DNA of 64,000 nt from Leptotrichia sp. OH3620_COT-345 (GTDB taxonomy: Bacteria; Fusobacteriota; Fusobacteriia; Fusobacteriales; Leptotrichiaceae). The notes beneath the pieces are model-generated. The model ran no database searches, had not been told where the DNA came from, and saw only the letters and a list, made by a program, of their open reading frames with translations. Below are positions 33,391-40,137 of this stretch, one piece after another (position 1 is the stretch's first letter; each line of letters opens with the position of its first letter). The position numbers were made by a program, and so were the translations under genes. The stretch is from contig NZ_RQYW01000001.1 in NCBI RefSeq assembly GCF_003932895.1, forward strand, positions 186,001-250,000, given 5' to 3'.

Positions 33391-33933
33391 TTATAAAAAA
33401 CTTTTTATTTCCATACGCTCCATGACTTCATTTGCAACATATCCGACAATTCCTCCTGTCACTATTGTAATAAGAAACATAAACGGCAGATAACTTAGAA
33501 AAAATAAATCTGTTTTGTAAATAAAAGAAGCTGCTATTATCTGTCCTAATATATGAAAATTTGCTCCTACAATACTTACTCCGATTACTGAAAGCTTACT
33601 GTATTTTTTTGCAAATCCAACTGCACAAATTGAAAGTAGCATTCCCGACAGAGAAAAAAGAAAATTTATTCCAAATCCGTTTCTTAATATTCCCACGACA
33701 ATTACTCTTATAATACCCAGTTTCACTCCATCTTTTACTCCATATGTGTAAACGACTGTCATTGTCACTATATTTACCAGACCTAATTTTATTCCCGGTA
33801 TAAAAATAGGAATTACTATGATTGACTCTATTATTTGCAGTACTATTCCAAGACTCAGAAACATTGAAAGTTGAAGTACTTTTTTTAATTGTTTTTTTTC
33901 TTTTCCCAAGTATTTTATCTGTTTGTTTTCCAT
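33391..33933 (-). CDS. Gx transporter family membrane protein
   Basis: The 180-residue protein has about five helices. Family features are LGIVLQIIESIIVIPIFIPG, IKLGLVNIVTMTVVYTYGVK and IGVSIVGANFHILGQIIAA. It belongs to the Gx family, often labelled heptaprenyl diphosphate synthase component I, and resembles ECF substrate-binding proteins. It is regularly found with ApbE and NusG-II proteins near Rnf or extracellular electron-transfer genes, where a quinone- or flavin-related role is supposed. Its ATG overlaps the stop of the NusG-II gene (TAATG). Confidence 0.85.
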   Translation of the reverse strand: MENKQIKYLGKEKKQLKKVLQLSMFLSLGIVLQIIESIIVIPIFIPGIKLGLVNIVTMTVVYTYGVKDGVKLGIIRVIVVGILRNGFGINFLFSLSGMLLSICAVGFAKKYSKLSVIGVSIVGANFHILGQIIAASFIYKTDLFFLSYLPFMFLITIVTGGIVGYVANEVMERMEIKSFL

Positions 33934-34358
33934 TAGCGTACCTCCACGTCGATATCACTATCGATAGAATTTTTGCCGCTATTTTTTACTGTTATTGTCA
34001 CTTTATTAGGCTGACATATAATAGGTCTTGTACTATCATCTGTAAAACCTACAAGTGAACAGTAATGATAAGGAGAACTTTCTTTTATTACAGCAACTTT
34101 TTTATTTTTCACTTCAATTATAAGAGTTCCGAGTAATAACGGATAGTCTTTTTTTTTCATAATTATAACTTGATTTTTATTCAAATCGAGAGTCATTATT
34201 TCTTTCCCTGAATACCGAACTTCTGCTCGATTCCCTTTAGTATCCGTAAATATTATTTTAAATAAAAAAAGAAAAACTGAAATTGAAATTATAAATAGTA
34301 TATACAAAATATCATATTTATTTATGTTTTTTTTATTCTTTAAAATTATATTTAACAT
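33933..34358 (-). CDS. NusG domain II-containing membrane-anchored protein
   Basis: A 141-residue protein with one N-terminal helix (about residues 16-36) and a small beta domain on the outer side. Features are AEVRYSGKEIMTLDL and HYCSLVGFTDDSTRPIICQP, with two cysteines 14 apart. This is the NusG_II (DUF1312) family, linked with rnf and apbE in many anaerobes. The start at 34358 has GGAG nine bases upstream and overlaps apbE by 26 bases. Its function is not known; a part in Rnf assembly is inferred from context. Confidence 0.82.
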   Translation of the reverse strand: MLNIILKNKKNINKYDILYILFIISISVFLFLFKIIFTDTKGNRAEVRYSGKEIMTLDLNKNQVIIMKKKDYPLLLGTLIIEVKNKKVAVIKESSPYHYCSLVGFTDDSTRPIICQPNKVTITVKNSGKNSIDSDIDVEVR

Positions 34359-35481
34359 AATTTTCTCCATTTATAAGCCTTTCGGTATTCTTTATTTCAC
34401 CGTTTTTAAATGCCCATATTGCATCTATATTTCCCATATTTTTGACAAGTTTTTCCCCTTCTTCATAAGAAAGCAAAAACAATGCTGTAGACATAAAATC
34501 TGCAAAAGCTGAATTTTCAGTTATTACAGTCACTGAAGCAAACTCTCCTCCCGGTTTCAACTTTTTTAAATCTATGACATGACCGTAAATTTCTCCTTTA
34601 TATACAAAATATCTCTGATAATTCCCTGTAGTGACCACCGACATATCTTTTGCCGCAATTTTTGCAATATATTCTCCTTTTTTATAGGGATTATTGTTAT
34701 CAAGCTCGGTATTTCCATAAATAGGAGATGTTATTCCTATACAAAACTCTTCTCTGCATTTTTTCAAATCGGAAATTTTATTTTCTTTTTTTGGAACTTT
34801 TCTTTTTCCTATTATTCGTACGTTCCCCCCTGCAGATATTATAAAAGAAGTTATTCCCATTTTTTTCATTTTTTCAGCTACAAATTCGACTGCATATCCC
34901 TTTGCTACAGCTCCTACATTGATTTTCATGCACTTTTCCTTTAGAAATACGGTCTCTTCCTTTTTATTTATTACAATATTATTAATATCAGTGCATTTTG
35001 AAGCTTCTTTTAACTTTTCCTCTAAAGGTAAAGTATTTTCATTTCTTTTTTCCCAAAGATCTATTATAGAACCTGCTGCTATATTTACAGAATTGCTTAC
35101 TTCTCTGTACATTCTTATGGATTCTTCGAGTAAATTTATTATATCCTTATCAACTTTTATCGCTTTTATCCCTGCATTATCATTTATTGTTTTTAAATTA
35201 TTTATTCCGTCATAACTTTTATAAATAGTATACAGCTTATCGAACCTTTTCATTTCTTTCTCATAAACAGAGACATTTTTTTTGAATTCCTCTTCACTTT
35301 GAGCATACCCTGTAAGAATATGTGTAGTATCGAATAATTCGTCAACTGTTTCCGTATACAGTTTTTCTTTTTTATCCGAGCAATTTGAAAATAGGGCTAA
35401 TATAAATACTAGAAGCCCTATATTTCTAAGTTTAAGGATTACTATATTTTTTTTTATGAAAGTTTTTATGTACTTTATCAT
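34333..35481 (-). CDS. apbE: FAD:protein FMN transferase ApbE, lipoprotein
   Basis: The 382-residue protein attaches FMN through a phosphodiester bond to Thr in RnfD and RnfG, both encoded just upstream. A long signal region ends in a lipobox (LFSNC, Cys at 34). Motifs are DTTHILTGYA, VNIAAGSIIDLWEKRN, KINVGAVAKGYAVEFVAEKM, FIISAGGNVRIIGK, MSVVTTGNYQRYFV and FADFMSTALFLLS. AGGAG seven bases upstream supports the start. It follows rnfB by 16 bases and is coupled to the NusG-II gene. Confidence 0.92.
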   Translation of the reverse strand: MIKYIKTFIKKNIVILKLRNIGLLVFILALFSNCSDKKEKLYTETVDELFDTTHILTGYAQSEEEFKKNVSVYEKEMKRFDKLYTIYKSYDGINNLKTINDNAGIKAIKVDKDIINLLEESIRMYREVSNSVNIAAGSIIDLWEKRNENTLPLEEKLKEASKCTDINNIVINKKEETVFLKEKCMKINVGAVAKGYAVEFVAEKMKKMGITSFIISAGGNVRIIGKRKVPKKENKISDLKKCREEFCIGITSPIYGNTELDNNNPYKKGEYIAKIAAKDMSVVTTGNYQRYFVYKGEIYGHVIDLKKLKPGGEFASVTVITENSAFADFMSTALFLLSYEEGEKLVKNMGNIDAIWAFKNGEIKNTERLINGENYVKYNFKE

Positions 35482-35497
35482 ATGTGCTCCTATATTT

Positions 35498-35824
35498 TTA
35501 ATTCACTTCAACTTTAATAATTTCTCCATTATTTCCCGGTGTATTTTCAAGATACTCCTTTATTTCTTCTCTTATTGCAGGTTTCATAGGTCTACACTGT
35601 TTTAAGGATTTTATTTCTCCATTCAGTATACCTTCCGCAAAACCACTACATCCCGGATATCCACACGCACCGCAGTTGAATTTCGGTAGCATTTCATTTA
35701 ACTTTGTCAATCGTTCATCAACTTTTACCTGTAAATATTTATCCGCTATCCCTAAAAGAAGTCCTAAAATTGCTCCTATTATTCCTAAAACAAGCATTGC
35801 TACTACCATAGCCCTTATATCCAT
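35498..35824 (-). CDS. rnfB: Short RnfB: N-terminal helix and one 4Fe-4S domain only
   Basis: RnfB normally accepts electrons from ferredoxin and passes them into the Rnf complex. This version has only 108 residues: a membrane helix (about 5-27) and the four-cysteine domain with C51, C54, C59 and C77 (FNCGACGYPGCSGFAEG). It ends at VEVN without the ferredoxin-like domains that follow in typical RnfB of 190 residues or more. The next gene begins 16 bases later and no remnant of the missing domains is visible, so the short form looks native. AAGGAG upstream and a TAATG overlap with the NqrM-like gene set the start. Confidence 0.85.
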   Translation of the reverse strand: MDIRAMVVAMLVLGIIGAILGLLLGIADKYLQVKVDERLTKLNEMLPKFNCGACGYPGCSGFAEGILNGEIKSLKQCRPMKPAIREEIKEYLENTPGNNGEIIKVEVN

Positions 35825-36009
35825 TAATTTTTCTCCTTTCTGTCGGGATGATGCCCACATGAAAATTGCCTGCAACCTTTGCATCCAACTTTACTTATCA
35901 GATTTTCACACCCCTCAGGTTTAGGTGTATTTTTATTTAATATATAAGTCAGTATAAATATTCCTACAAGGAATAATACCCATAATAAAGGTGCCAATTC
36001 TATTCCCAT
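35824..36009 (-). CDS. NqrM-like small cysteine-rich membrane protein in the Rnf operon
   Basis: A 61-residue protein with one N-terminal helix (about 6-24) and four cysteines at 34, 43, 46 and 51 (EGCENLISKVGCKGC...SCGHH). The layout, a single helix then a GC-x-NL and CxxC block, is like NqrM (DUF539), the small protein needed for iron-site maturation of Na+-NQR, the relative of Rnf. It also resembles FeoB-associated cysteine-rich proteins. It sits exactly between rnfA and rnfB and overlaps rnfB (TAATG). An Rnf maturation role is inferred. Confidence 0.65.
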   Translation of the reverse strand: MGIELAPLLWVLFLVGIFILTYILNKNTPKPEGCENLISKVGCKGCRQFSCGHHPDRKEKN

Positions 36010-36582
36010 TTATACCACTCCCGCAAATCCAAGCATAATCATTGCCATTATCGCTGCTGTAATCAGTGAAATAGGATTACCTTTAAAATGTTTTACTGTA
36101 GTTGCCAGTTCCAACCTTTCTCTGATTGTGGCAAATATAAGCATCACTAGCATAAAACCTATAGGTACTCCTATGGAATTCACTATCATCTGAGAAAAAT
36201 TGTATCCCTCTCTTATATTCAGCAATGCAGTTCCAAGCACAGCACAATTTGTAGTAATTAAAGGTAAATAAACTCCCAGTGCTTTATACAATGGAGGAGA
36301 AAACTTCTTTATCACCATTTCAACAAATTGGACAAGAGAAGCTATAACAAGTATGAATGTTATTAAGTCAAGATACTCCATATTATAAGGAACTAATACT
36401 TTATAATAAATCCCATATGTTATAATAGATGAAGAAAATATTACAAAAATTACTGCAAGACTCATTCCAAAAGCTGATTTAAGACTTTTGGAAACCCCAA
36501 GAAATGGGCAAACTCCCAGATATTTTGTAAGAATTATGTTATTAATCAGAACAGCTGATATAAATAAAGTAAACAGTTCCAT
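36010..36582 (-). CDS. rnfA: Rnf complex subunit A
   Basis: The 190-residue integral membrane subunit has six helices. Family motifs are LINNIILTKYLGVCPFLGVS, TTNCAVLGTAL and ATIRERLELA. The two cysteines in CPF and NC, also present in RnfE, coordinate the intramembrane iron centre between RnfA and RnfE. It is one base after rnfE and directly adjacent to the NqrM-like gene. Confidence 0.95.
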   Translation of the reverse strand: MELFTLFISAVLINNIILTKYLGVCPFLGVSKSLKSAFGMSLAVIFVIFSSSIITYGIYYKVLVPYNMEYLDLITFILVIASLVQFVEMVIKKFSPPLYKALGVYLPLITTNCAVLGTALLNIREGYNFSQMIVNSIGVPIGFMLVMLIFATIRERLELATTVKHFKGNPISLITAAIMAMIMLGFAGVV

Positions 36583-36583
36583 T

Positions 36584-37240
36584 TTATTTCACCTGCCCTT
36601 TTTTCTTAGTATCTTTTTTTACAGGTTTATTTTTATATATGTTGAACAATCCTGCCAATAATCCGAAACTCAAAAATGCTCCTGCTCCCGATGTAAAAAA
36701 TGATGCTCCGTAATTTTTGAACATTGATATCTGAAATACTATTTTTTCACTATCAAATAAACTCTTCAACTGTAATTCTCCTGTTCCGAGTATTTCTCTG
36801 AAAGCAGACATCGCAATCAAACTTATTCCAAAACCGATACTTACTCCTATAGCATCCATAAATGAATCAGTTACCGTATTTTTGCTGGCAAAAGCTTCAG
36901 CTCTTCCCAAAACTATACAGTTTACTACTATAAGTGCAAGAAAAACTCCTAATGATTCATATACTGGTAAAGCATAAGCATTTAACATCATTTCACAGAA
37001 TTTTACAGCTGTTGCAATAACTACTATATATACAGGTATTCTTATCTGATCAGGAACAATTTTCCTCATTGCCGAAATTATCGTATTTGTTATTATAAGG
37101 ACTACTGTAAAAGCTGCTGTCATACCTACTGCATTTGTCAGTGAATTTGTTGTAGCAAGTATGGGACAGGTTCCAAGAAACATTACAAATACAGGATTTT
37201 CTTTTATTATTCCTGATTTTATCAGTTCAATTTTTTTCAT
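36584..37240 (-). CDS. rnfE: Rnf complex subunit E
   Basis: The 218-residue membrane subunit, paralogous to RnfA, is inserted in opposite topology. Motifs are NPVFVMFLGTCPILATTNSL and IVVNCIVLGRAEAFASKN with the paired cysteines for the intramembrane FeS centre. The start overlaps the rnfG stop by four bases (ATGA). A lysine-rich tail ends the protein. Confidence 0.95.
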   Translation of the reverse strand: MKKIELIKSGIIKENPVFVMFLGTCPILATTNSLTNAVGMTAAFTVVLIITNTIISAMRKIVPDQIRIPVYIVVIATAVKFCEMMLNAYALPVYESLGVFLALIVVNCIVLGRAEAFASKNTVTDSFMDAIGVSIGFGISLIAMSAFREILGTGELQLKSLFDSEKIVFQISMFKNYGASFFTSGAGAFLSFGLLAGLFNIYKNKPVKKDTKKKGQVK

Positions 37241-37770
37241 TTTCTGTCCTCCTTCTTGTAATTTTTTTCAAAATGAGCAACTGCTTCCTTTATACCTTTA
37301 TCAAGACCTTTGGAAGTTACTGTAGCCCCACTTATACCGTCAATATCATCGGAAACTGATTTTTCCGTAAACTGACTTTTGTATACCTCCTCATCCATTT
37401 TTGTTCCAAAGCCCGGGGTTTCATTATGTTCCAGTGAATTAAATGCCTTGTATTTCCCTTCTGGTGTTATAGCAAGTAAAAATCTTATTTTTCCTCCGTA
37501 ACCTTTAGTTTTTACACTATATACATATCCTGAAACTTTCCCGTTTTCCTCTGCTTTAAATATTGTTTCTATAATTTTTGAATCTTTAGGAGCCTCTTCT
37601 TCACTAAATTCGGTATTTTTATTGAACATCACTTCAAGTTTTTTATTCTGTTTGGCTATATTTGCATTTTTTATTGTTTCTTTAGTTAAGGAGTTTGTTA
37701 TTGAGAGGACAAATGCCGAAACTATACTGACAATTGCTAGAAATAAACTTAAATATAAAGACTTTTTCAT
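37237..37770 (-). CDS. rnfG: Rnf complex subunit G, FMN-binding
   Basis: The 177-residue protein has one N-terminal helix and an extracytoplasmic FMN domain. The covalent FMN site is Thr in DGISGATVTSKG near residue 150. Other motifs are GYGGKIRFLLAI and HNETPGFGTKM. ApbE, encoded downstream, is expected to load the flavin. It starts two bases after rnfD. Confidence 0.95.
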   Translation of the reverse strand: MKKSLYLSLFLAIVSIVSAFVLSITNSLTKETIKNANIAKQNKKLEVMFNKNTEFSEEEAPKDSKIIETIFKAEENGKVSGYVYSVKTKGYGGKIRFLLAITPEGKYKAFNSLEHNETPGFGTKMDEEVYKSQFTEKSVSDDIDGISGATVTSKGLDKGIKEAVAHFEKNYKKEDRK

Positions 37771-37772
37771 AA

Positions 37773-38828
37773 TTATGCACCTCTCCAGAATAATGTTATC
37801 AATAAAGCACTTATTCCAATAAGTCCTATAACATATATTTTCTTTCTATTTTCATTTTCATTTGTAGGAGATATTGTATACCTGTCTATCATAGGTGTCA
37901 ACATATTCATAATAAGTATCGAATAAAGAACACCTTCAGGCATATTCGACCTGTATCTTAAAAGCATTGTAAAAAATGCCGCTCCTATTGCAAATATTAT
38001 TTTCCCGTATGGACTTGAAGGGGATGTAACGGGATCAGTCAGCATAAACACTCCTCCAAATATCAATCCTCCTATCCCTATCTGTACTAAGGCAAAACCG
38101 AAAGGGGATAATCCGTGAACGAGTGCTGTTATAAAAGTGATTATAAAAGAAGTTCCTATATAAAACACAGGTAATCTCCAGTCCAAAACTTTCTTAATCG
38201 CTAAAAATATTCCCAATATTATTATAAGTAAAGCAAAAGTTTCTCCAATAGATCCTTTATAAAATCCTATATATAAATTTGTCAGAGATACACCCACATT
38301 TCCTGACCATCCTGTTCCTGAAAGCATTGTTGTAGGGGTAGCACCGCTCACTGAATCTACTGCCTTTGAAGGTAATACAGCCGTTAATTTATCTCCATAG
38401 GACATCATCACAAAAACCCGACCTATAAGAGCAGGATTAAATATATTCTGTCCAAATCCTCCAAATATTAATTTCCCTATAAGTATGGAAAATAGACTTC
38501 CTGATATAACTACATAATAAGGAGTACCTATAGGTAAAATAAGTGCGAACAGTATTGCAGTTACATAAGGAAATGATCGGTTTACAGCTTTTAATATATC
38601 CTTTTCTTTAAGCATATAAAAATAAGCCGCTTCACATAAATATGCTGAAATCAGTGATACTGCAATCATTAAAACTGCTTTTATTCCGTAATCAGCTCCA
38701 AGAGTAAAATAATATCCTGCGGAAACTGCAGAAACAATTAATAGAGTTATTGTAAGATAGAGCATTATTTCCTGTGTGGATAAAATATTTCTGTAATTCG
38801 GTGTAGTTCTTTTAAATATTATTTTCAT
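37773..38828 (-). CDS. rnfD: Rnf complex subunit D, FMN-binding
   Basis: The 351-residue membrane subunit has about ten helices. The covalent FMN threonine is in SVSGATPTTMLSG near residue 190. Other family blocks are GGFGQNIFNPALIGRVFVM, HGLSPFGFALVQIGIGGL and FMLTDPVTSPSSPYGKIIF. AGGTGG upstream of 38828 supports that start over the longer frame from 38855, which would overlap rnfC. Only one base separates it from rnfC. Confidence 0.95.
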   Translation of the reverse strand: MKIIFKRTTPNYRNILSTQEIMLYLTITLLIVSAVSAGYYFTLGADYGIKAVLMIAVSLISAYLCEAAYFYMLKEKDILKAVNRSFPYVTAILFALILPIGTPYYVVISGSLFSILIGKLIFGGFGQNIFNPALIGRVFVMMSYGDKLTAVLPSKAVDSVSGATPTTMLSGTGWSGNVGVSLTNLYIGFYKGSIGETFALLIIILGIFLAIKKVLDWRLPVFYIGTSFIITFITALVHGLSPFGFALVQIGIGGLIFGGVFMLTDPVTSPSSPYGKIIFAIGAAFFTMLLRYRSNMPEGVLYSILIMNMLTPMIDRYTISPTNENENRKKIYVIGLIGISALLITLFWRGA

Positions 38829-38829
38829 T

Positions 38830-40137
38830 TTATTTGCCACCTGCCTTTCGGGCATTGGCTATTCTTGTTTTTGCCTTTCCTACCCAGTCGGTAACTTCTA
38901 TTTTAGAAGGACAGATAAATGAGCATAGTCCACATGTTATGCATTTATCTGCTCCGGCATTTGTTACACTATCCAAATCTTTCATTTTTTCTCCGTTCAT
39001 TATCTGGACAGGCTGTATCTTTGCGGGACAATATTCTACACAAAGTCCGCAACGCAGACAAGGCATTTCATCCGTATCCTTTTTAGGAAGTATAGTTACC
39101 GAATTGCTGTAACTGCTTATGACAAATTGGTCATTTGCTATGGATTTCCCCATCATAGGTCCTCCTGCAAGCACTACTATTTCTTCACATTTGTCATTAT
39201 ATCCTCCTATTTTATCTATTATGTAGTCTACCGATGTTCCAATAGGAACATACACATTTTCAGGATTTTTTATTCCTTCTCCTGAAACAGTGACTATTCT
39301 GTGTGTTATAGCTTTTTTCTGTCTTAATGCTTCAGACAGATATATTGCCGTTGTGGCATTATTTACTATTATACCTATTTCACTAGGAAAACGTTCATAT
39401 TCTTTTTTAAATATTTCTCTTATGAGAACCCTTTCCCATCCCATAGGATAAGCATCGGGAACTCCCACTATTTCAATATCATTAAACTTTGCAGCTTTTT
39501 CTTTTAATTTTAAAATTAAATCTTTATTTGTTACTTTCACTGCAATAATTCCTTTTCCGGCATGTCCGGCTTTCATAAGAAAATGCGTTCCATCCAGTAA
39601 TTCTTCAGAATGTTTTTCCATCACCTTATAATCCGATGTAAGATACGGTTCACACTCAACTGCATTTATAAGCACAGCTTCAATATTTTTTGCATTCTGA
39701 TACTTTACATATGTAGGAAATCCCGAACCTCCAAGTCCCAATATTCCTATTTCCTTAATTGCTTCTACTAATTCTTCCGCTGAAAGACTGTCAGGATTAT
39801 CATAAGAAAACGGAGTAATTTCATCATCTTTAAAATCATTTTCTATAAGCAGATGATTCTGAATTTTTCCTGATGTATGCATTCTTTTTTCAATCCCTTT
39901 GACTGTTCCTGAAACAGGCGAATACAGAGGAACATAAATGTCCTTTCGTGTAGCCAATTTTGTTCCTTTATGAACATAATCTCCCTCACTTACATGTACG
40001 TCAAAATCTGTCGATGCTCCGATAATCAAAGGAATATAAACAATTTCAGGCTCAGGTAAGCTAAGAACTTGTTTTGACTTTGTAAGTTCTTTTTTACCGT
40101 TAAGCCTAATTTTTCCAATTCCACTTAATAAGCTCAT
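38830..40137 (-). CDS. rnfC: Rnf complex subunit C, NADH-side
   Basis: The 435-residue peripheral subunit exchanges electrons with NAD through FMN and two 4Fe-4S clusters. N-terminal barrel-sandwich sequence includes PLIIGASTDFDVHVSEGDYV; the nucleotide-binding block has GLGGSGFPTYVK and INAVECEPYLTSDY; the C-terminus holds CLRCGLCVEYCP and CITCGLCSFICPSKIEV. GAGGAG upstream places the start at 40137; the longer frame to 40254 runs into ecfT. The 73-base gap contains TATAAT (40194-40189) but no clear -35, so an internal promoter is only possible. Confidence 0.95.
   Translation of the reverse strand: MSLLSGIGKIRLNGKKELTKSKQVLSLPEPEIVYIPLIIGASTDFDVHVSEGDYVHKGTKLATRKDIYVPLYSPVSGTVKGIEKRMHTSGKIQNHLLIENDFKDDEITPFSYDNPDSLSAEELVEAIKEIGILGLGGSGFPTYVKYQNAKNIEAVLINAVECEPYLTSDYKVMEKHSEELLDGTHFLMKAGHAGKGIIAVKVTNKDLILKLKEKAAKFNDIEIVGVPDAYPMGWERVLIREIFKKEYERFPSEIGIIVNNATTAIYLSEALRQKKAITHRIVTVSGEGIKNPENVYVPIGTSVDYIIDKIGGYNDKCEEIVVLAGGPMMGKSIANDQFVISSYSNSVTILPKKDTDEMPCLRCGLCVEYCPAKIQPVQIMNGEKMKDLDSVTNAGADKCITCGLCSFICPSKIEVTDWVGKAKTRIANARKAGGK

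Follow-up and report, generated by a model that had tools for sequence, protein, structure and literature searches.

A short-form RnfB and a small cysteine protein encoded in the rnf operon of Leptotrichia sp. OH3620_COT-345

How can an Rnf complex be served by ferredoxin when its RnfB ends after the first [4Fe-4S] domain? This question is raised by the rnfB gene of Leptotrichia sp. OH3620_COT-345, which lies in the window analyzed here (the whole stretch of DNA, 64,000 nucleotides long) and which an earlier note had described as stopping after the first four-cysteine domain, at 108 residues. The best explanation overall, to which we give a probability of about 0.8 on the basis of sequence comparison, is that the locus encodes a complete Rnf-type ferredoxin:NAD+ oxidoreductase whose RnfB has only this first domain (FdI), that the operon was acquired with RnfB already short, and that a small protein encoded beside rnfB is a dedicated accessory.

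The rnf operon and the limits of RnfB

The genes follow one another on the minus strand in the order rnfC, rnfD, rnfG, rnfE, rnfA, a gene for a 61-residue protein, rnfB, apbE, a NusG_II gene, and a Hpre_diP_synt_I gene (Table 1). All six subunits, RnfA to RnfE and RnfG, are encoded within this one operon, RnfB in its short form. RnfA, RnfC, RnfG, and RnfE (PRK12405) passed the NCBIfam cut-offs, while RnfD with TIGR01946 (203.8 vs 207.05) and RnfE with TIGR01948 (213.1 vs 213.4) were marginally under them. The start of rnfC was set at MSLLSG from comparison with relatives; its open frame extends to 40254. All four ligands of the intramembrane [2Fe-2S] cluster were present in RnfA and RnfE, at the same positions as the AE1 ligands reported for A. 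woodii (PMC11889175). The flavinylation set was also complete, with motifs in RnfG and RnfD and ApbE encoded, and the genome encodes a 58-aa two-cluster ferredoxin and pyruvate:ferredoxin oxidoreductase (PFOR). A second, partial set, apbE - rnfC (438 aa) - rnfD (362 aa), was located before mfd (TRCF) (L048 827-4265; G000:C2, about 231826-235264). It has no adjacent rnfG, rnfE, rnfA, or rnfB, and the single FMN_bind match of the genome is the RnfG of the window.

Table 1. Genes of the rnf operon and adjoining genes in the window
Gene	Position	Strand	Description	Size, basis or context
rnfC	38830..40137	(-)	RnfC_N, Complex1_51K, SLBB, two [4Fe-4S] motifs	Pfam/NCBIfam
rnfD	37773..38855	(-)	flavinylation motif SGATPT	Pfam/NCBIfam
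rnfG	37237..37770	(-)	flavinylation motif SGATVT	Pfam/NCBIfam
rnfE	36584..37240	(-)	Cys25 and Cys108 present	Pfam/NCBIfam
rnfA	36010..36582	(-)	Cys25 and Cys113 present	Pfam/NCBIfam
61-aa protein gene	35824..36009	(-)	single-helix membrane protein, tail C-x8-C-x2-C-x4-C	between rnfA and rnfB
rnfB, short form	35498..35824	(-)	TM helix, single PF04060 [4Fe-4S] domain (FdI), tail of ~30 aa	108 aa
apbE	34333..35481	(-)	flavin transferase, 16 bases past rnfB	Pfam
NusG_II gene	33933..34370	(-)	NusG domain II protein, same gene string	Pfam; order as in L115, L117
Hpre_diP_synt_I gene	33391..33933	(-)	heptaprenyl diphosphate synthase component I family, same string	Pfam; order as in L115, L117

The open reading frame and the Pfam search agreed with the earlier description of RnfB. 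PF04060 (FeS) was the sole Pfam match at E ≤ 0.001, covering residues 46-79 with 48.2 bits against a cut-off of 23, and one membrane helix precedes this domain. With the full-length RnfB model TIGR01944 (NCBIfam) the protein scored 62.5 bits, below the cut-off of 68.7, and the C-terminal ferredoxin domains were absent. The ATG of rnfB is at 35824; a longer in-frame start exists at 35884, and the homologues begin at or near 35824. A profile of 23 short RnfBs aligned inside residues 1-99 of the solved RnfBs 7zc6, 9eri, and 8ahx, and therefore covers the transmembrane helix and the first domain. An AlphaFold model of RnfB, built from three sequences, had a mean pLDDT of 73.5; the fold search returned nothing at E ≤ 0.001, and its best match, the [4Fe-4S] domain of CFeSP, was weak (E 0.25). 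With PF04060 behind an N-terminal transmembrane helix, a length in the range of about 95-120 aa, and the last place in rnfCDGEAB, the protein is an FdI-only RnfB of the T. maritima type. RnfB truly ends after the first cluster domain.

The lengths of RnfB in relatives, a comparison that the earlier note had proposed, were then determined. RnfB matches were found in 31 of 60 related genomes. Four of them, all from Leptotrichiaceae (G000, G001, G009, and G011), were short, in frames of 109-130 aa, and 27 were long (300-395 aa). The short RnfBs of G001, G009, and G011 were 78-92% identical to that of the window. Of 98 genomes from the phylum, 67 had a PF04060 match; the same four short proteins were the only ones in frames below 290 aa, and for two further members of the family the only matches lay in frames of 582 and 592 aa. 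A contig search with the short-RnfB alignment gave just two relatives, both already in the comparison set, and in plasmids RnfB was matched partially in 5 records, which were uninformative. That a sequencing error, a frameshift, or an assembly artefact accounts for the short RnfB has a next to negligible probability. The assembly is a draft, in 247 contigs, but RnfB has an identical length and ending in three relatives, which argues against a frameshift, only 16 bases separate the rnfB stop from the apbE start, and no frame of the window has a ferredoxin motif outside rnfC. The earlier statement that the short form is not a recent frameshift, made from that gap and the lack of a remnant in it, was thus borne out.

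A missing ferredoxin part was sought in the window and in the genome. Six-frame translation of the whole 64-kb window contained two CxxCxxCxxxC motifs, both in rnfC, and none elsewhere. PF14697 (E ≤ 0.1) matched five stretches across the genome, namely the 58-aa ferredoxin, which was the best with 37.6 bits, RnfC, pyruvate:ferredoxin oxidoreductase, and two stretches in the second RnfC. As a benchmark, two full-length RnfBs were taken from the order's other families; they scored 59.8 and 91.9 bits over the whole protein, so a free-standing C-terminal part of RnfB should have shown up. No such part and no polyferredoxin part was found near the locus or in the genome (PF14697, E ≤ 0.1). The separate ferredoxin subunit and the stand-alone C-terminal domain that the earlier note had envisaged were not recovered, nor was a domain split off into a nearby gene. 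A split RnfB in the source genome was rejected, since the genome has no PF14697 partner and the window no motif outside rnfC. In an unrelated genome (G196; L102 6475-7510), RnfB is split into adjacent genes for a 94-aa protein with a transmembrane helix and FeS domain and a 249-aa polyferredoxin.

Origin of the operon and electron input through FdI

RnfA and RnfE from hand-picked loci were combined in a tree of 390 columns (LG+G4, 1000 ultrafast bootstraps), which was rooted by choice on the Thermotoga-like pair. The tree used 54 of 67 loci; the other 13 were dropped because one protein was not longer than 150 aa or, in L110, because two operons were present. The four Leptotrichiaceae operons clustered (UFBoot 97) and joined three loci of another class (L112, L113, and L127) at 100 and then L111 at 87, and four operons from the other families of the order fell in a different part of the tree. 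All but two of the 24 class loci labelled as lacking a linked small gene formed one clade (92); the deep nodes were weak (31-64). In one genome of that class a DnaA-like frame was intact only under table 4 (UGA-recoding), as is the case in mollicutes, and we therefore refer to the class as one that includes code-4 mollicutes. Two loci of the class, L115 and L117, have apbE (Pfam-checked in L115), NusG_II, and Hpre_diP_synt_I after rnfB, in the order of the window. Both also have an extra gene of 341-459 aa between rnfG and rnfE (L115 4023-5402 and L117 3714-4739), which in L115 has a weak FMN_bind domain.

The Acholeplasmataceae Rnf of Peloplasma aerotolerans likewise has the order rnfCDGEAB, and its rnf accessions, as listed in PMC11122141, skip one gene between rnfG and rnfE and one between rnfA and rnfB. 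These accession gaps would fit the layout of L115 and L117 and are consistent with an inserted gene between rnfA and rnfB. Taken together, the comparisons suggest with moderate confidence that horizontal transfer brought in the rnf operon as a block, its RnfB being short by then, from a distant class to which a mollicute-like genome belongs. Because the operon nests in a class with short RnfB, apart from the long-RnfB operons of the order, it does not look like a recent truncation. Given this apparent horizontal origin, setting the window's RnfB beside that of the order's other families means comparing non-orthologous proteins.

A natural FdI-only RnfB has been published for T. maritima, as PMC7414866 and PMC9588780 report. 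According to PMC7414866, the T. maritima RnfB has a mass of 10.56 kDa and one predicted cluster, the cluster number being left open by its authors, and the purified complex oxidises C. pasteurianum ferredoxin and transports Na+. An RnfB with FdI only is thus a known working kind, for which another donor is unnecessary, and the earlier proposal of another electron donor or a separate ferredoxin subunit is not supported. The T. maritima Rnf shares with the window the order rnfCDGEAB and an RnfB made of a transmembrane helix and one PF04060 cluster domain. However, in two Thermotoga-like operons (L103 and L105), with short RnfBs of 95 and 115 aa, rnfB follows rnfA without a small cysteine gene in between. 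The RnfG of one of them aligned with T. maritima RnfG 3dcz (E 7e-54). Acetobacterium woodii, Clostridium tetanomorphum, and the other families of the order share the core RnfA, C, D, E, and G, the AE1 cysteine positions, and FdI (B8), but their RnfB continues into another domain, for which the structures that PMC12174285 reviews show 2-7 [4Fe-4S] clusters. In contrast to the window, the canonical long-RnfB operons examined had no small cysteine gene.

In the solved RnfBs, as described in PMC9588780, PMC11889175, and PMC12174285, the first domain (FdI/B8) is a mobile single-cluster piece that passes electrons to the RnfA/RnfE cluster, and the C-terminal part accepts electrons from ferredoxin. 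The short RnfB would then act as a membrane anchor with a mobile single-cluster domain that feeds the [2Fe-2S] cluster between RnfA and RnfE, and we infer that soluble ferredoxin would dock directly onto FdI. From RnfA/E the electrons would pass to RnfG, RnfD, RnfC, and NAD+, the presumed direction, coupled to ion export. By likeness to T. maritima, an ion-coupled ferredoxin:NAD+ activity can be inferred for the Rnf of the window. A different history, in which the ferredoxin domains of RnfB disappeared within Leptotrichiaceae and a donor such as flavodoxin or an unidentified subunit took over, would suit the survey of 33 Leptotrichiaceae genomes, 29 of which gave no RnfB-type match, and the long RnfB in the rest of the order. 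This history appears improbable, however, because the tree nests the operon in another class having short RnfB, a single-cluster RnfB elsewhere (T. maritima) accepts ferredoxin, and ferredoxin and PFOR are both encoded in the source genome.

The 61-residue cysteine protein and its distribution

The gene between rnfA and rnfB begins right at the rnfA stop, and the last base of its own stop codon is also the first of the rnfB ATG. Its product has one predicted helix (residues 5-27), followed by LNKxTPKPEGCE...C-x2-C-x4-C-GHHP. The window protein had no Pfam or NCBIfam match and was not assigned to a family of either collection. The AlphaFold model, from three sequences, had a mean pLDDT of 62.8, and values in the cysteine tail were mostly under 50. 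A scan demanding C-x2-C-x3-8-C behind a helix-like stretch returned 74 rows, of which 8 were removed by eye as spurious frames or RnfB. The 66 small proteins, four of them from Leptotrichiaceae, have three cysteines by requirement of the scan itself, and a fourth was present in 56 (on the N-side in 52, 10-13 residues to the C-side in 4). The other 10 have three cysteines only, 6 of them with a histidine within the next five residues. The pattern is in keeping with a site for a metal or a cluster whose fourth ligand can be exchanged.

The relationship of the small protein to other families was analyzed by profile alignment. Against the short-RnfB profile, hhalign gave a probability of 84% and a score of 32.6, above all 60 column shuffles (maximum 24.8). 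When the soluble columns alone were shuffled, the maximum of 60 was 31.8, and the helix therefore carries most of the signal. The small protein is possibly derived from the N-terminus of RnfB. NqrM (DUF539, PF04400) resembles it in length (about 60-75 aa), in its one N-terminal helix and the four cysteines in a short tail, and in its association with Nqr, a complex related to Rnf, but has the spacing C-x11-C-x-C-x3-C (L121) in place of C-x8-C-x2-C-x4-C. For NqrM, represented by one sequence (L121) that came from 1 of 80 genomes, hhalign gave 20.4, within the shuffles (maximum 22.5). Homology to NqrM was unsupported by this score, and PF04400 was not among the Pfam matches. FeoB-associated Cys-rich membrane proteins (PF12669) also consist of a helix and a Cys-rich tail. 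This family was matched weakly by 12 of 25 small-protein members at E ≤ 1 (best 2e-4), but the window member gave no match and its genomic context is rnf.

In the open-licence PMC literature, we found no published description of a small cysteine gene between rnfA and rnfB and no publication on the RnfB of Leptotrichia or Erysipelotrich- bacteria. The accessible passages of Rnf accounts of mollicutes and relatives there, and those of the flavinylation surveys PMC8238504 and PMC11334425, make no mention of RnfB length or a small gene.

The small protein occurred in the same four genomes as the short RnfB and in no other of the 60 relatives (E ≤ 0.001). A four-sequence profile run on 389 genomes added a single clear match, in G203 from outside the phylum (E 2.4e-8); the next (E 8e-4) lay inside a 435-aa frame. 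In the class of G203, the one that includes code-4 mollicutes, the protein was found in 106 of 296 genomes (E ≤ 1e-4). A PF04060 protein was present in 105 of these 106 as against 62 of the 190 without it, a comparison that ignores kinship and includes PF04060 in non-RnfB proteins, and a listed short RnfB was present in at least 84 of the 106.

PF04060 matched 167 of the 296 class genomes. Among the 150 matches listed, 119 frames were of 150 aa or less, 8 of 151-200 aa, none of 201-350 aa, and 23 were larger. The eight intermediate frames have tandem PF04060. In the 21 larger frames inspected (of 23), ferredoxin motifs come first and PF04060 follows at residues 342-382, so these are another protein type and not RnfB. 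These proteins, of 386-579 aa, form a separate family in the class (L161, L210-L229). Three loci of family f234 (L107, L108, and L143) encode an RnfB of 183-194 aa with two tandem PF04060 and no ferredoxin domain (Pfam-checked in L107). They also carry the small cysteine gene, and L107 has a further paralogue about 0.8 kb downstream of rnfB. In G180 (L106 5348-5803), where rnfB is full-length, an additional gene separates it from rnfA; the 151-aa product has a hydrophobic N-terminus and contains PF04060.

The 127 short PF04060 matches listed corresponded to 123 loci in 119 genomes, and among them the small gene was linked to short RnfB in 87 loci, not linked in 35, and undecidable in 1. In 73 of the 123 loci listed, the small protein was encoded less than 500 nt upstream of rnfB on the same strand. 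Inspection of the other 50 revealed a small single-helix cysteine gene in 14 and none in 35, and one (G467) was cut by the contig end. The 14 genes overlooked by the narrow profile include G490, G497, and the partial G622, and some have cysteine spacings longer or shorter than that of the window. Where it could be measured, the spacing between the stop of RnfA and the first cysteine of RnfB was bimodal, 136-171 nt without an inserted gene and 310-374 nt with it. Among the 35 unlinked loci listed, 14 genomes had a copy elsewhere and 21 had none at E ≤ 1e-4 with the narrow profile. Of the 14, 11 had an unlinked copy only, and 3 were second rnf operons with a linked copy also present. The unlinked homologues L174 3458-3610 and L175 3402-3593, in Rnf-positive genomes, adjoin phosphomannomutase-type and uracil-DNA-glycosylase-type genes; the L174 copy lies between phosphoglucomutase/phosphomannomutase and uracil-DNA-glycosylase family genes. 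The absence of the small gene from the two Thermotoga-like operons and from these 35 of the 123 loci listed means that short RnfB does not strictly need it.

The specificity of a 25-sequence profile was examined in 80 chosen genomes (E ≤ 0.05), 4 with the gene and 76 without. The 76 were mostly long-RnfB carriers of many families, together with additional members of the order, seven Leptotrichiaceae that lack RnfB, and G288, G146, G114, and G196, which have short or split RnfB. The profile matched 14 of the 80 genomes, and stand-alone small proteins were matched only in the four positives (G000, G011, G479, and G432) and in none of the 76. Outside these four, the strongest match (G115, E 9.5e-5) was to an RnfB N-terminus and spanned positions 3-50 of 59, and nine more were weaker and partial (E 4e-4 to 0.025).

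Candidate roles of the small protein

The features of the small protein suggest that it is probably an accessory of Rnf that binds iron or an iron-sulfur cluster, either as an insertion factor or as an extra cluster subunit. It would assist in building a cluster or inserting one, as NqrM does for Nqr, and by this analogy it may insert the [2Fe-2S] cluster in the RnfAE pair. Such a building or insertion role is judged more likely than that of an obligate electron relay, because the protein has an NqrM-like build, unlinked copies exist, forms with three cysteines are tolerated, and the gene is absent where short RnfB persists. A relay is favored by the position of the gene and its overlap with rnfB, by the matching C-x2-C-x4-C, and by the lack of any long-RnfB case among those seen.

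In its full form, the relay reading takes the 61-aa protein as a stoichiometric seventh subunit with an extra [4Fe-4S] cluster; the protein and FdI would then form a split module for electron input in place of the lost ferredoxin domains. This would agree with the zero-gap and overlapping junctions with rnfA and rnfB, with a cysteine spacing that is also found in FdI, with the place of the fourth cysteine in most of the 66 proteins, and with the hhalign score against RnfB and the RnfB N-terminus as the best match outside the carriers. We consider it rather doubtful, however, since most of the profile signal comes from the helix, short RnfB occurs without the small gene in the Thermotoga-like operons and in the unlinked class loci listed, the only detected copy lies away from the rnf locus examined in 11 genomes, and 10 of the 66 proteins have but three cysteines.

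A broader proposal, which we put forward tentatively and at somewhat less than even odds, is that these loci represent a widespread Rnf branch with an unrecognised seventh component, a cluster-binding one-helix protein possibly derived from RnfB, that would either form a two-piece input module with FdI or serve [2Fe-2S] maturation, the block having moved between phyla. The small cysteine gene is a candidate for how a single-cluster RnfB is served by ferredoxin, and also a candidate for a dedicated factor in RnfA/RnfE cluster building, as Nqr has. The Rnf structures found in print all have an RnfB with extra ferredoxin domains; no natural input module is smaller than that of the FdI-only Rnf, which appears to be the usual form in the bacterial class that includes mollicutes.
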